54,193 nt of DNA, taken from NCBI GenBank assembly GCA_011389555.1, contig JAABUD010000302.1:1-54193 (forward strand). Direction: 5' to 3'. Source of the DNA: Desulfotignum sp. Its GTDB lineage: Bacteria > Desulfobacterota > Desulfobacteria > Desulfobacterales > Desulfobacteraceae. Shown here one piece after another: positions 48,787 through 54,193 of the stretch (position 1 is the stretch's first letter; every line of letters begins with the position of its first letter). The notes below the pieces were generated by a model that was not told the DNA's origin, searched no databases, and worked only from the letters and a program-made list of their open reading frames with translations. The position numbers and the translations under genes were made by a program.

Positions 48787-48822
48787 AAATGGGGCCAATC
48801 TTTTTAAATGAGGAGAGATTCT

Positions 48823-49476
48823 ATGTTGAAGCTTGGAGAAAAAGGAGCCATTCCCCAGAAAGACAACGAAACCTATGCCATTGCCCCTCACATTCCCTGC
48901 GGGGTGGTTACGCCGGATCTGCTGCGGAAAATTGCGGATATATCTGAAAAATACCAGGCCAAAGCCATAAAAATCACCGGGGCCACCCGGCTGGCTATCG
49001 TGGGACTCAAAGAATCCGACATCGATGCGGTCTGGGAAGATCTGGGCATGGAAAAAGGCGCGGCCGTCGGGCTTTGTGTCAGAAGCATACGCACGTGCCC
49101 CGGCACCACGTTCTGCAAACTCGGAAAACAGGATGCACTGGGGATCGGGATGAAGCTGGACCAGAAATACCATGCCGCCACATTGCCGGGTAAATTCAAG
49201 ATGGCGGTATCCGGCTGCAAGCTGAGCTGTTCGGAATCCTGGGTCCGGGATATTGGATTGATCGGGCTTCCGGGCGGGTGGACCCTGACCATCGGCGGAA
49301 ATGTGGGGATGACCCCCCGGATAGGCAAAGAACTGGTGGCCGAACTGGATGATGATCAGGTGTTGGCGGCCGTGGAAAAAGTGATCGCTGTTTATACGGA
49401 CCAGGCAAAACCCGGTGAACGCCTGGGGAAAATGATAGAACGACTTGGACTGGATCCGTTCAAAGCGGTTCTGTAA
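48823..49476 (+). CDS. Small assimilatory-type siroheme sulfite reductase
   Basis: A 217-residue protein. The cysteine pattern is C92-x5-C98 ('CPGTTFC') and C132-x3-C136 ('CKLSC'), the siroheme/[4Fe-4S] signature of nitrite and sulfite reductases. The length matches the low-molecular-weight assimilatory-type sulfite reductase of Desulfovibrio vulgaris, about half a usual subunit. It reduces sulfite, or possibly nitrite, with electrons from a ferredoxin-type donor. The ATG at 48823 has AGGAG. It lies 36 bp after the cyclase gene. The 3' flank has a strong inverted repeat at 49512-49569. Confidence 0.88.
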   Translation: MLKLGEKGAIPQKDNETYAIAPHIPCGVVTPDLLRKIADISEKYQAKAIKITGATRLAIVGLKESDIDAVWEDLGMEKGAAVGLCVRSIRTCPGTTFCKLGKQDALGIGMKLDQKYHAATLPGKFKMAVSGCKLSCSESWVRDIGLIGLPGGWTLTIGGNVGMTPRIGKELVAELDDDQVLAAVEKVIAVYTDQAKPGERLGKMIERLGLDPFKAVL

Positions 49477-49783: not shown

Positions 49784-50071
49784 ATGTCATCAAATCAATT
49801 TTTTAATCACGAAGGACCGTGGTCGGATGCCACAGAACCGCTGATGTGCACGGATACCGGCGATTGGCGAACCAAGCGGCCGGTGGTGGACAAGGAAATG
49901 TGTATTTTCTGCGGTTTCTGTGCCATCTACTGCCCGATTCAGGTGATGGAAATGACAGCGGACAGCTGTTTCGAGCCTGATCTGGATTTCTGCAAAGGAT
50001 GCGGCATCTGCGCAAAAGAATGTCCCAAAGGGGCGATCACCATGGTTTCAGAAGGGGAGTTTGTATCATGA
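49784..50071 (+). CDS. 2-oxoacid:acceptor oxidoreductase, delta (ferredoxin-like) subunit
   Basis: A 95-residue two-[4Fe-4S] ferredoxin. The cysteines are C40-C43-C46-C50 and C70-C73-C76-C80. This is the delta subunit that relays electrons in four-subunit pyruvate-, 2-oxoglutarate- or phenylglyoxylate-type oxidoreductases. A GGGGAGGG site precedes the ATG; the longer frame from 49559 includes non-coding sequence. The stop overlaps the alpha-subunit ATG. The order delta-alpha-beta-gamma differs from the pad operon of Aromatoleum but matches common Por/Kor clusters in anaerobes. Confidence 0.88.
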
Positions 50072-51294
50072 ATACCTCTGCAACATCGTCTACTATCAAA
50101 GTCATCACCGGAAACGCCGCCGCCGCCATCGGCGCAAAACTGGCCCGGCCCGATGTGGTGGCCGCCTATCCCATTACTCCCCAGACCGAGGTGATCGAAC
50201 AGATATCGAGCTTTCACGCATCCGGAGAGATGGATTGTGAACTGATCACCGTGGAAGGGGAAAATTCCGCCATGAACGCCGTGATGGCGGCATCTCTGGC
50301 AGGCGGCCGGGTATTTACCGCATCCTCTTCCTGGGGGCTGGTGTTCATGTATGATGCTGTTTTGGCTACAGCCGGTGCCAGAGCCCCCGTGGTCATGGTC
50401 AATGTGAACCGGGAAACCCCGGGGATTATTGCGGTGTCTTCCGGTCAGCAGGACATGATCTCCACCCGGGACGCGGGCTGGATATTTCTGGTTGCTGAAA
50501 ACTGCCAGGAGATTCTGGACCTGGTCCTTCAGGCCTACCGCCTGGCCGAGGATTATGATATTCAGGTGCCGGTGATGGTGCATTATGACGGTTTTTTTCT
50601 GTCCTATCTGTCCGAAGGCGTGGAAATTCCGGAGCAGGAAACCGTGGATCAGTTTCTGTCGGTACTTGAAACCCAGCCGAAGCGGACCATGCTTCGACCC
50701 GGTGAAAAAATGGGCGTGGGAACCCACGGGATTCTGGGCGGGTACATGGAACTGAGGCATAAACACGTGACCGCCATGGAGCGGTCCAAAGCCAAATTCG
50801 ATGCCATTGATCAGGAATTTGCCGATGTTTTCGGCCGAGCCTATGGCGGGCAGCTGGAAGAGTATCGCACCGAAGATGCGGATATGGTTCTGGTGGGATC
50901 CGGTTCCATGTGCGGCACCATCAAGTCGGTCATCGATGAACAGCGAGAAAAAGGCCTGCGCGTCGGGCTGGTGAAGATCCGCATGTACCGTCCTTTTCCC
51001 CATCAGGCCCTGGTCAAGGCGCTCAAGGGGAAAAATGCCATCGGCGTGGTGGATCGCAGCCTGGCGTTCGGATTTGACGGCGGTCCCATCTACACGGAGT
51101 TGAAAGCATTTGAAACCAAATTGGGTGGGGCGAAACTGGTCAGTTTTATCGATGGCATCGCCAATACCGATATCACCAAAACCAATGTGATACAGATGAT
51201 CCGGATGACGAAAGATCTGGCGGACGGCAAGGATGTCCCTGAAGTAACCTGGGTGTCGTATCCGGAGGCCAATTCAGACAAAGGGGGAAAATAA
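50068..51294 (+). CDS. 2-oxoacid:acceptor oxidoreductase, alpha subunit
   Basis: A 408-residue PorA-type subunit. '[35 protein letters not shown]' is the substrate/pyrophosphate domain start. '[29 protein letters not shown]' and '[21 protein letters not shown]' follow, with a late '[13 protein letters not shown]'. It forms part of the thiamine-diphosphate-dependent complex that oxidatively decarboxylates a 2-oxoacid to acyl-CoA, reducing ferredoxin. The ATG overlaps the delta stop. The substrate (pyruvate, 2-oxoglutarate, phenylglyoxylate) is not decided by sequence alone; the downstream Mo-enzyme genes favour phenylglyoxylate. Confidence 0.9.
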
Positions 51295-51295
51295 C

Positions 51296-52270
51296 ATGAC
51301 TGAGAAAAAGAAAGGCCGGCTGACCAACGTACTGGATTACCTCAAACATGACGACCCGTTTTCAAAAGGGGTGGCGTTCTGCCCGGGGTGCGGTCTGGAA
51401 CTGCTGTTGCGTTTCATCCCCCGGGTCCTGGGAAATGACATCGTCATTACCGGCACCCCGTCCTGTTCCGCCCCGGTACTGCTGGGTCAGAACAGGCAGT
51501 CCTGGCACACCCTGTCTTATTTCGGGACCCTGATGACCGGGGCCGCCGCCAATGCAACGGGCCTGGTGCGTTACTACAAAAAAGCCGGTATCGACAACAC
51601 GGTGGTGTGTTTCAACGGCGACGGCACGGCCAATGATATTGGATTCGGTAATCTTTCCGGGGCTGCGGAACGCAATGAACCCTTCATCTACATCTGCTAT
51701 GACAATGAAGGGTATATGAACACCGGTATCCAGAAAAGCGGCACCACCCCTTATGGGGCCACCACCACCACCACCCCCTACGGCACCGTGCACAGGGGAA
51801 AGAACCTGCGGCGCATGAACCTGGGGCTGAAAATGGCCATGAACAAGATTCCCTATACTGCCACGGCGACACTCAGTGATCTGGAGGATCTGGCCAAGAA
51901 ACTGCTCAAGGCGAAAAAAGCCAAGGAGCGGGGATTCTGTTTTCTCCATGTGTTCGCGCCCTGTCCCACCGGCTGGGGAGCGGATCCCGCAAATACGATC
52001 GACATCTGCCGGCAGGCGGTGAAATCCAATTATTTTCCGCTGTGGGAGGCGGAAAACGGTAAAATCCGCATGACCAAGACCGTCAAAAAGCCCAAACCCG
52101 TGAGCAGTTACACCAAAATGATGAAAAAATTCAACCACATGACTGAAAAGGATATGAAGATCCTTCAGGAAGATGTGGAATATGAATATTGCCTGTTGGG
52201 CGGACTGAGCGTGCTGGAAGCGGAATGCCAGCTCCCGGTTTCTGCGGAAGATCAAGGAGAAAAATTATGA
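51296..52270 (+). CDS. 2-oxoacid:acceptor oxidoreductase, beta (ThDP-binding) subunit
   Basis: A 324-residue subunit. N-terminal 'FCPGCGLELLLRFIP' and 'TPSCSAPVL' supply FeS cysteines. The ThDP motif is 'GDGTANDIGFGNLSGAAERNEPFIYICYDNEGYMNTGIQKSGTTP'. 'FLHVFAPCPTGWG' carries another conserved Cys. The complex binds ThDP here and passes electrons through 4Fe-4S clusters. It ends overlapping the gamma-subunit ATG, and starts 1 bp after the alpha subunit. Confidence 0.92.
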   Translation: MTEKKKGRLTNVLDYLKHDDPFSKGVAFCPGCGLELLLRFIPRVLGNDIVITGTPSCSAPVLLGQNRQSWHTLSYFGTLMTGAAANATGLVRYYKKAGIDNTVVCFNGDGTANDIGFGNLSGAAERNEPFIYICYDNEGYMNTGIQKSGTTPYGATTTTTPYGTVHRGKNLRRMNLGLKMAMNKIPYTATATLSDLEDLAKKLLKAKKAKERGFCFLHVFAPCPTGWGADPANTIDICRQAVKSNYFPLWEAENGKIRMTKTVKKPKPVSSYTKMMKKFNHMTEKDMKILQEDVEYEYCLLGGLSVLEAECQLPVSAEDQGEKL

Positions 52271-52818
52271 TGAGTGAAGTCAGATTCCATGGCAGGGGCG
52301 GGCAGGGGGTGGTCACCACCTCCAAGATTCTGGCCAATGCATTTGTCAGAACCGGGCAGTTCGGCGCCAGCTTTCCCATGTTCGGATTTGAACGCAGAGG
52401 GGCTCCGGTCACGGCATTCGGGCGGTTTTCCGACAAACCGGTGAAAGAGAAAACCCAGATCTACAATCCCAATATCCTGGTGGTGCTGGATCCGTCCCAG
52501 AAACATTCTTCCGCCGTGTTTGACGGGCTGTTGCCCGGCGGCATGCTGCTGCTCAACGACAAAAAGAATTCAGGCGATATCCGGCATGAGAATCTGAGAA
52601 AACTGGCCGTGGTGGATGCCAACGGCATCGCCCTGGAGGAGATCGGACTGCCCATTCCCAATACTGTGGTGGTAGGCGCGTTTGCAAAAATGTCGGGGCT
52701 GCTGGATATCGAACCGGTGCTGGAGGCATTGGCGGATTTTTTTTCCGGCAAAAAACTGGATGCCAACAAGGTGTGTGCAAAAAGAGGGTTTGAAGAGGTA
52801 GCGACGGTTGATCTTTAG
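52267..52818 (+). CDS. 2-oxoacid:acceptor oxidoreductase, gamma subunit
   Basis: A 183-residue PorC/PorG-type subunit beginning MMSEVRFHGRGGQGVVTTSKIL, the signature of the family. It continues with 'FGASFPMFGFERRGAPVTAFGRFS' and 'PIPNTVVVGAFAKMSGLLD'. A CAAGGAGAA site precedes the ATG, which overlaps the beta stop (ATGA). Together with delta, alpha and beta this completes a four-subunit enzyme with no FAD subunit, so the electron acceptor is likely ferredoxin rather than NAD+. Confidence 0.9.
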   Translation: MMSEVRFHGRGGQGVVTTSKILANAFVRTGQFGASFPMFGFERRGAPVTAFGRFSDKPVKEKTQIYNPNILVVLDPSQKHSSAVFDGLLPGGMLLLNDKKNSGDIRHENLRKLAVVDANGIALEEIGLPIPNTVVVGAFAKMSGLLDIEPVLEALADFFSGKKLDANKVCAKRGFEEVATVDL

Positions 52819-52880
52819 GCAGCGTGAAACAGGATCAATACAGATGCAAAATAATAAAATAAAGACAAAAAGGAGCTGCT

Positions 52881-53537
52881 ATGCCTAGATGGGGAATGGT
52901 AATCGATGTAAAACGGTGTATTGCCTGCTGGGGGTGCACCATCGCGTGCAAGGAAGAACATTTTCTGCCCCCCGGGGTGTTCTTTAACCGGGTGCTGATC
53001 GGGGAAACCGGCAAGTTTCCCACCTCGTCCAAGCTGATTTATCCGATCCTGTGCAACCATTGCGAGGACGCGGCCTGTGTGGAGGCATGCCCCACGGGTG
53101 CCACTTATGTCCGAGAAGACGGGATCGTGGCCATCGACGAGAGCAAATGCGTGGGATGCCGGGCCTGTATGATCGCGTGTCCGTATCAGCAGCGGACCTA
53201 TTATGATGAAAAAGTCAAAAGCCGGGAATATTTCCCGGGCCAGGGCAAGACCGAGATGGAAATTATCGGTGAAAAACTGTATCCCTTTACACTCGGGACG
53301 GTGATTAAATGCAATTTTTGTTCGGAACGGATCGATGATGGCATGAAAAAAGGCCTGACCCCGGGCAAGGATGAAGACGCAACGCCCGCCTGTGTCAATA
53401 TCTGTCCGGTAGGTGCCCGGGTGTTTGGAGATCTGGATGATCCCAACAGCGAGATCAACCGGTTGATCATGGAGAAGAAAGGCAAACAACTCAGAAAAGA
53501 ATTCGGCACTGAACCCGCCGTTTACTATATCGATTAA
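52881..53537 (+). CDS. DmsB-like four-[4Fe-4S] electron-transfer subunit (PadC-like)
   Basis: A 218-residue ferredoxin-type protein with four cysteine groups: 'CIACWGCTIAC', 'CNHCEDAACVEACP', 'CVGCRACMIACP' and 'CNFC' paired with 'PACVNICP'. This is the electron-transfer subunit pattern of DMSO-reductase-family molybdoenzymes. A molybdopterin oxidoreductase starts 12 bp later, so the two are partner subunits. There is no Tat or Sec signal. The pair resembles PadC and PadB of phenylacetyl-CoA:acceptor oxidoreductase, which is supported by context rather than by a unique motif. AAGGAG precedes the ATG. Confidence 0.88.
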   Translation: MPRWGMVIDVKRCIACWGCTIACKEEHFLPPGVFFNRVLIGETGKFPTSSKLIYPILCNHCEDAACVEACPTGATYVREDGIVAIDESKCVGCRACMIACPYQQRTYYDEKVKSREYFPGQGKTEMEIIGEKLYPFTLGTVIKCNFCSERIDDGMKKGLTPGKDEDATPACVNICPVGARVFGDLDDPNSEINRLIMEKKGKQLRKEFGTEPAVYYID

Positions 53538-53549
53538 ACAGGAGGCAAT

Positions 53550-54193
53550 ATGACCTATAAGACAGATGAAATTTGGGAAGACAAATGGGTAAATACCACC
53601 TGTGGCGTCTGCTATTGCGGATGCGGAGCCAAAGTGCGGGTGGTGAACGGGGTGCCGGTGAAAATCGAGGGCATCAAAGAGACCACCATGGGCGGTACCA
53701 ATGCCGGTCTGTGCGGCAAAGGGGTGGCCGGTCTCATGTACTACCATGACCCCAACCGGATCAAAAAACCGATGCTGCGGACCAATCCGGAAAAAGGGAT
53801 CGGTGTGGATCCCAAGTGGAAAGAGATTGAATGGGAAGAAGCCTATGACATCATCACCACCAAGATGAAAAAGATCATGGAAGATGATCCCAACAAGATT
53901 CTGTTCACCAATCAGACCATGCGGGCTTCGGACGGTCCGCACAACCATCCCTATTTTTATGCCCAGGCGTTCGGGGTCAAGAACAACGGAAATTTTATCA
54001 TCGGCGGCGGCAGCCTGCACTGCGGCAATGCCTGTCACATGCTGGGGGGCCTGATTCACGGGGCCTGGTCCATTGCGCCGGACTGGCGGTACACCAAATA
54101 TGTGTTGAAATGGGGCTCCAGCAAGGGCACCGGTTCCGGACATTCCGCCATGACCAATGCCCGGTTGCGGGCCGATGCAGTCCGAAGAGGCAT
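53550..54193 (+). CDS. Molybdopterin oxidoreductase catalytic subunit (partial, PadB-like)
   Basis: The first 214 residues of a DMSO-reductase-family Mo/W enzyme; the rest is beyond the window. The N-terminal FeS motif is 'TTCGVCYCGCGAKVRV', with the last Cys in 'AGLCGKG'. The next part ('RIKKPMLRTNPEKG', 'WEEAYDIITTKMKKI') and the 'GSLHCGNACHMLGGLIHG' segment follow the usual fold. No twin-arginine signal is present, so the enzyme is cytoplasmic. It is preceded by GGAGG and the DmsB-like gene. The metal-ligand residue cannot be assigned from what is visible. Confidence 0.85.
   Translation, partial: MTYKTDEIWEDKWVNTTCGVCYCGCGAKVRVVNGVPVKIEGIKETTMGGTNAGLCGKGVAGLMYYHDPNRIKKPMLRTNPEKGIGVDPKWKEIEWEEAYDIITTKMKKIMEDDPNKILFTNQTMRASDGPHNHPYFYAQAFGVKNNGNFIIGGGSLHCGNACHMLGGLIHGAWSIAPDWRYTKYVLKWGSSKGTGSGHSAMTNARLRADAVRRG

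Follow-up and report, generated by a model that had tools for sequence, protein, structure and literature searches.

A conserved, non-canonical Pad-like gene cluster of Desulfotignum and its relatives as a candidate module for arylacetyl-CoA oxidation

In this work, we analyzed a cluster at the end of a contig of Desulfotignum sp., in which a four-subunit 2-oxoacid:ferredoxin oxidoreductase is followed by the first genes of a molybdopterin enzyme. The stretch of DNA under study, hereafter the window, is the whole of contig JAABUD010000302.1 (54193 bases, our contig C303), and its source genome comprises 317 contigs and is 94% complete. An initial annotation had described a delta-alpha-beta-gamma oxidoreductase, a DmsB-like subunit and a molybdopterin enzyme without a twin-arginine translocation (Tat) signal on one strand; concordant Pfam and NCBIfam scans confirmed all six genes, which lie on the + strand and overlap or stand 1-62 bases apart. 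The cluster opens with the delta subunit (PorD/PadF-type, 95 aa, 49784..50071), whose 4Fe-4S domains hold two 4Fe-4S sites and which scored 87.1 bits with TIGR02179 (cut-off 60.05; the protein scanned begins at 49811). There follow the alpha subunit (PorA/PadG-type, 408 aa, 50068..51294), with POR_N and PFOR_II domains, the beta subunit (PorB/PadI-type, 324 aa, 51296..52270), with a thiamine pyrophosphate domain but not the ferredoxin-like domain that PadI has at its N-terminus, and the gamma subunit (PorC/PadE-type, 183 aa, 52267..52818; TIGR02175, 196 bits, cut-off 81.1). Next come a PadC/DmsB-like Fe-S electron-transfer subunit (218 aa, 52881..53537) and the first 214 aa of a PadB-like molybdopterin enzyme, or Mo enzyme (53550..54193), which is cut by the contig end. 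No Tat signal was visible on either protein when the window translations were judged by eye. With the delta and gamma subunits over their cut-offs, the oxidoreductase belongs to the pyruvate/2-ketoisovalerate family of 2-oxoacid:acceptor oxidoreductases; the beta subunit reached 46 bits with TIGR02177, under its cut-off of 262.

The rest of the operon was located by a search with the full-length Mo protein of a close relative (locus L028; L and G numbers denote our loci and genomes). Contig C304 of the same assembly (locus L075) opens with the C-terminal part of the Mo enzyme (L075:2-1093), 363 residues with 97% identity to the L028 protein (query 509-871), and the gap between C303 and C304 accounts for about 295 residues of this enzyme. 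A membrane-type protein of 301 aa (L075:1111-2016; 89% identical to the L028 copy), a GNAT gene and Liv-type ATPases come after it. In L028, likewise, the complete Mo enzyme of 872 aa is followed by the 301-aa subunit. No Pfam or NCBIfam model matched the C304 protein, and we call it PadD-like because the L028 copy resembles PadD of genome G091 (29% identity, E 6e-22), itself a match to Pfam NrfD. The PadD-like membrane subunit that the initial annotation had proposed to look for downstream is therefore present on C304 and in relatives, and with it (taken from L075) the set has the architecture of PadBCD: a Mo enzyme, a DmsB-like protein and a PadD-like membrane subunit, with no Tat signal seen by eye.

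The gene order delta-alpha-beta-gamma-FeS-Mo-PadD is complete in L028, L029, L032, L033, L034, L035, L038 and L039, and the conserved order was seen in genomes of Desulfotignum and Desulfobacula; in other fetched loci some genes were masked by longer overlapping frames or lost at contig ends. Since the same order recurs across the family, chance adjacency was discarded as an explanation. The N-terminal part of the Mo enzyme was detected in 45 of the 86 family genomes (E <= 1e-20), although in G035 as two pieces only, one with an internal stop. This count uses the Mo gene as a proxy for the operon, the complete operon having been read only in fetched loci. The pairing of Por and Mo genes holds throughout the family loci read, as it does in L108, L111, L116, L121 and L159. 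Three genomes of another family, f50 (G134, G182 and G216), have the Por genes on one contig and the Mo and PadD-like genes on another, and the FeS gene stays beside the Por genes where read. The portions of the open-licence PubMed Central literature available to us, including those of PMC13416013, PMC6365974 and PMC4046663, yielded no description of this operon type. Plasmids were also considered as carriers of Pad, but among the matches listed they held distant Mo enzymes only, with at most 36% identity.

The closest characterized counterparts are PadBCD, the phenylacetyl-CoA:acceptor oxidoreductase, which like the window operon combines Mo, Fe-S and PadD-type subunits without visible Tat signal in one operon next to a Por-type enzyme, and PadEFGHI, the phenylglyoxylate dehydrogenase (NCBIfam NF045762-NF045766). 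The gamma, delta, alpha and beta subunits of the window are homologous to those of the latter, and the alpha subunits have a QQD motif in common. Scores with the canonical models were 172 bits for gamma with PadE (cut-off 300), 79 bits for delta with PadF (cut-off 150), 351 bits for alpha with PadG (cut-off 700) and 272 bits for beta with PadI (model positions 147-435 of 443; cut-off 700), whereas the PadG positive controls of G056, G019 and G063 reached 737-749 bits. As the initial annotation had noticed, PadH is missing: no match was found among the open reading frames of the window, nor within 9 kb of the alpha gene at any of the 21 loci that form the window clade in the tree described below, while the control G091 gave 535 bits (cut-off 475). 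When beta subunits were compared with the PadI N-terminus, its ferredoxin-like domain was recognized in all 18 of the Pad and Pad-like proteins and in none of the 21 from the window clade. The canonical clusters compared were L049/G091, L168/G056, L169/G063, L171/G019 and L135. Among the 86 family genomes PadG exceeded its cut-off in three (G056, G019 and G063), all carriers of the window-type Mo gene, and there the canonical cluster, in the order PadE-G-H-I-B-C-D, is a locus separate from the window-type operon. The assembled part of the window's own genome yielded no canonical Pad. As a separate observation, three genes of the xanthine-dehydrogenase family come after canonical Pad in L168 (G056) and L171 (G019); those of G056 score under the 4-hydroxybenzoyl-CoA reductase cut-offs, and their best models, xanthine or glyceraldehyde dehydrogenase, are also below cut-off.

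Phylogeny of the alpha and beta subunits, a check proposed in the initial annotation, did not group them with the classical pyruvate type, placed them at a distance from rows of the DHSD type and also left them outside the PadG/PadI clade. The tree held 62 loci hand-picked from 108, with near-identical copies and some others omitted. Canonical Pad (10 rows) and the window type (21 rows) formed separate clades, each at 100/100; the tree gave no firm branching order at the base among canonical Pad, the window group, clostridial enzymes, L126, L128 and L143. The window clade, which includes the unfused beta subunit of L116, joins L121, L123, L129, L134, L137 and L159 at 100/100, the nearest Por group outside it. 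Unlike the window operon, these six keep both a PadH-like gene and a ferredoxin-fused beta subunit. L159 shows the complete pad order, Mo-FeS-PadD-E-F-G-H-I, and its Mo enzyme belongs to the same branch as that of the window. PadG was the best model for the alpha subunits of L159 (386 bits) and L121 (430 bits), as was PadH for the PadH-like proteins of these two loci (304 and 317 bits), all under cut-off. Aside from these, two sister Por gamma-alpha-beta clusters (L051:845-5630 and L112:6230-10936), in which no Mo gene was seen, adjoin an adenylate-forming acid-CoA ligase that is 65% identical between the two and best matched, under cut-off, by a dihydroxybenzoate ligase model; L051 also has a TRAP transporter.

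The Mo enzyme contains the motif SLHCGNACH, whose cysteine aligns with one in the ArrA chain and is a conserved residue of PadB as well; we take this residue, common to PadBCD and the window type, to be the probable Mo ligand. Between the L028 enzyme and PadB of G091, which has PadI and PadH over cut-offs adjacent to it, identity is 32% over 868 aligned columns, while the Fe-S protein of L028 is 45% identical to PadC of G091. Window-type Mo subunits are only 29-32% identical to PadB and lie outside its clade. Their nearest relatives outside the window type are the Mo subunits of L159, L121 and L116 (37-42%), and in a tree of 25 rows picked from 79, many of the remainder being copies, they group with these Por-linked enzymes apart from PadB (91/92, or 97/98 without two long rows); the Mo enzyme of L134, which is near a Por gene, is an outlying row. 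Other PadB-like sets were encountered as well. A third Mo/FeS/membrane set (L170:8063-17714, G053) adjoins a UbiD gene (Pfam, over cut-off), an AOR-type tungsten enzyme and a pair of genes that by eye resembles an acyl-CoA synthetase, and the PadB-like Mo enzymes at L079:7676-13819 and L082:8496-13132 adjoin genes of hydantoinase and aconitase type.

The operon is linked to the benzoyl-CoA pathway strongly within the family and more weakly outside it. The pathway gene oah (TIGR03200) was found in 43 of the 86 family genomes, in 39 of them over cut-off. With presence set at E <= 1e-20 for the Mo gene and E <= 1e-50 for oah, 39 genomes had both, six the Mo gene only (G031, G032, G044, G074, G076 and G079), four oah only (G039, G052, G061 and G085) and 37 neither (Fisher p 2.5e-13). 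Co-occurrence was corrected at the genus level, not by a species tree: the overlap of 39 compares with a mean of 33.9 after shuffling within genera (p 6e-5). Restricting the count to the 45 genomes with a completeness of 95% or more gave 20, 2, 1 and 22 in the same order, and in genus g4 the Mo gene and oah are confined to the same 2 of 19 genomes. The second pathway gene, had (TIGR03201), searched in 14 genomes only, is present in four of the six genomes with the Mo gene alone. In f50, oah was over cut-off in G134 and G216; in G182 it was not, and had was not found. In genome G017 a single 20-kb contig carries oah, had (480 bits, cut-off 339) and the FeS-Mo-PadD part; an AOR-type tungsten enzyme and a gene with a thiolase domain lie between the pathway genes and that part, and the contig breaks off inside the operon. 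IorA was also considered as a correlate and put aside, as its presence in 82 of 86 genomes makes it uninformative.

Sampling beyond the family gave a more mixed picture. In an order-level sample of 242 genomes, oah was found in 79 and the window-type Mo gene in eight, seven of which have oah. Eight of the 16 genomes reached via named loci (two coincide with family genomes G017 and G048) have oah at E <= 1e-40, six over cut-off. No match at that threshold was obtained in the genomes of L105, L111, L112, L114, L116, L118, L120 and L159. The positives outside the family include L108, over cut-off, and L121, a partial match under cut-off; in the likewise positive L107, L109, L110 and L113 the flank read contains Por genes without a Mo gene.

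Taken together, these results establish the window operon as a real and conserved Pad-like module that is not canonical and that is tied to aromatic degradation in its family. The initial reading as a phenylacetyl-CoA to benzoyl-CoA module is supported in part: the enzyme types stood and the in-family association with oah favors it, but the identification with PadBCD and PadEFGHI did not hold, as the window enzymes fall in a separate clade. We judge the chances to be just better than even that the operon encodes a ferredoxin-linked system for the alpha-oxidation of an arylacetyl-CoA (phenylacetyl- or hydroxyphenylacetyl-CoA) to an aroyl-CoA; phenylacetyl-CoA, 4-hydroxyphenylacetyl-CoA or another arylacetyl-CoA may be the substrate. 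In favor of this reading are the conserved gene order, the in-family association with oah and had, the contig of G017, the Ior genes of L108 described below, the joining of the window clade to clusters with PadH-like genes such as the Pad-ordered L159, the SSGQQD motif of the alpha subunit and the alignment of the L028 Mo enzyme with PadB of G091. The chemistry, its direction, the orientation, the cofactors and the acceptors are modeled here on Pad. The membrane-anchored Mo enzyme of PadB-, PadC- and PadD-like subunits would oxidize arylacetyl-CoA with water at the alpha carbon to arylglyoxylate, its Mo site probably facing the cytoplasm given that no Tat signal is visible, and electrons would pass from that site through the Fe-S protein and the PadD-like subunit to the quinone pool (menaquinone). 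In a second step the delta-alpha-beta-gamma enzyme would convert arylglyoxylate and CoA to aroyl-CoA and CO2, presumably reducing ferredoxin instead of forming NADH because PadH is missing, and the aroyl-CoA product would enter the benzoyl-CoA pathway. It seems rather unlikely that the operon is specifically a second route from phenylacetyl-CoA to benzoyl-CoA, lacking PadH and evolved separately from canonical Pad, that serves most benzoyl-CoA-degrading Desulfobacteraceae of the family and conserves the energy of phenylglyoxylate oxidation as reduced ferredoxin; if it were, this ferredoxin could directly support a tungsten-type (class II) benzoyl-CoA reductase.

Several observations weigh against the assignment to arylacetyl-CoA oxidation. 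The window subunits miss the canonical Pad cut-offs, and the presence of canonical Pad elsewhere in G056, G063 and G019 means that the two systems need not share a substrate. The GQQD motif of the alpha subunit occurs in clostridial alpha subunits with no assigned substrate as well, and is therefore evidence against the pyruvate type, not evidence for arylglyoxylate. For the Mo enzyme, a single clade of PadB and the Por-linked enzymes was rejected (p-AU, the approximately unbiased test, 0.014, with long branches present), and PadB scored 398 bits with the window enzyme, against 427-463 bits for five related Mo enzymes near which no Por gene was seen. Three genomes with the Mo gene, G044, G076 and G182, yielded neither oah nor had. 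Outside the family, two of the seven genomes with Mo-flanked loci (L105, L108, L111, L116, L120, L121 and L159) gave oah, these being metagenome-assembled genomes of unknown completeness. Moreover, 72 oah genomes of the order sample are without the window-type Mo gene, so the operon is a side module and not a core part of the benzoyl-CoA pathway. Lastly, what most often lies downstream is a GNAT gene and a Liv-type transporter. The initial annotation had named downstream genes without a tie to aromatic degradation as grounds for abandoning its reading; these neighbors lean that way, but the contig of G017 with oah and had does not.

The same neighbors suggest the alternative that survives best, although we hold it to be unlikely: the same chemistry acting on a non-benzenoid or aliphatic acyl-CoA, for instance one derived from a branched-chain or other amino acid taken up by the Liv-type transporter, or on indoleacetyl-CoA. 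Of 13 family loci, several of them cut by contig ends, 11 have a GNAT gene downstream and 7 a LivF homologue with about 70% identity or more; a PatB-family pyridoxal phosphate enzyme lies beyond the Liv-type genes. LivM of L028 exceeds its cut-off; for LivF, LivG, LivH and the binding protein of this locus the best models are Liv models too, with scores under cut-off. Aromatic amino acids, however, can be substrates of Liv-type transporters as well. The best NCBIfam score of the beta subunit is with the 3-methyl-2-oxobutanoate dehydrogenase subfamily (282 bits, cut-off 405), which is in line with such a substrate, as is the weak link to oah outside the family; the alpha subunit, however, scored lower with the 2-ketoisovalerate model (299.5 bits) than with PadG, and a non-benzenoid substrate would not predict the in-family association with oah and had.

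Alternatively, the Mo enzyme might be a reductase or have another respiratory role, sharing only its regulation with the oxidoreductase, which we consider improbable. The dimethyl sulfoxide reductase family includes many reductases, and related Mo enzymes adjoin genes of hydantoinase, aconitase or UbiD type. The absence of a visible Tat signal speaks against a periplasmic terminal reductase, and although the three f50 genomes, with Mo and PadD-like genes on another contig than the Por and FeS genes, fit independent roles, they retain all the parts despite the split, which suggests one pathway.

Somewhat less probable still is an ordinary pyruvate or 2-oxoglutarate:ferredoxin oxidoreductase next to an unrelated Mo enzyme. 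The top model of the alpha subunit is PorA_Arch, at 414 bits higher than PadG, and its top PDB match is 9bt4, a pyruvate:ferredoxin oxidoreductase of the separate-subunit type to which the alpha and beta subunits are homologous along most of their length. Yet the PorA_Arch score is under its cut-off of 550, the PorB cut-off is likewise missed, and the DHQD motif is absent: the window reads SSGQQD at the position of WNDHQD in 9bt4, where eight of the ten canonical PadG rows read WGGQQD and the other two WGGHQD. Besides, the genome has six other places with POR_N, one in a frame of 896 aa, and Por and Mo genes stay paired across loci, with alpha and beta subunits distant from the DHSD-type rows. 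On motif, cut-off and tree, a plain pyruvate enzyme was discarded. That the operon is the canonical PadBCD plus PadEFGHI system is hardly credible, even with the two enzyme types adjacent and a PadD-like subunit present, given the missed cut-offs, the absent PadH and ferredoxin domain, the separate clades and the distinct canonical loci in three genomes, although the function could still be the same.

If arylacetyl-CoA is indeed oxidized by this operon, it may be how these sulfate reducers turn phenylacetate-type compounds into benzoyl-CoA. The proteogenomic study of Desulfococcus multivorans reports no padB or padEFGHI genes, calls the route from phenylglyoxylate to benzoyl-CoA unclear and cites Desulfobacula toluolica as likewise not requiring pad genes for phenylacetate (PMC5109826). 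For this step the operon offers a concrete candidate, widespread in Desulfotignum and Desulfobacula, whose predicted electron acceptor is ferredoxin and not the NAD of the known enzyme. Other reports confine BamBC to Desulfosarcina, Desulfobacula, Desulfonema and Desulfotignum (PMC11887813) and claim pad-type genes in Desulfotomaculum gibsoniae and a Dehalococcoidia cell (PMC4148979, PMC4959651). The lack of growth on benzoate mentioned for Desulfotignum phosphitoxidans (PMC4046663) was not used as evidence here. Furthermore, the pairing of PadB-like and Por-type enzymes extends to lineages well apart from canonical Pad, so that similar unnamed clusters in other phyla become recognizable and testable.

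Some neighboring genes deserve mention. Upstream of the operon in L108, and on its strand, are IorA, with 789 bits over its cut-off of 651, and an IorB-like gene, with 196 bits under its cut-off of 206; a GntR-type regulator separates the two from the Por genes. IorAB makes phenylacetyl-CoA from phenylpyruvate and, like AorABC, takes part in phenylalanine breakdown (PMC9765128). An AOR-type tungsten enzyme is found near the operon at L034:5003-7407, L037:1502-6112 and L120:7417-8920 (63-76% identical to that of L037). Beside it, L034 and L037 have a 160-aa Fe-S protein, and L034 also a UbiX gene; the enzyme and the 160-aa protein together are near the operon in genomes G001 and G017. Its identification as AorABC, for which PMC6365974 gives 66, 46 and 17 kDa in Aromatoleum, was considered by comparing sizes and rejected, the proteins being far under the NCBIfam cut-offs, and it serves as a lead only. 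Finally, a small NirB/sulfite-reductase-like (NIR_SIR) gene lies just upstream of the operon at 48808-49476 of the window and occurs in five fetched loci: L003, which is the window itself, L030 and L088, which share one contig, L089 and L091.

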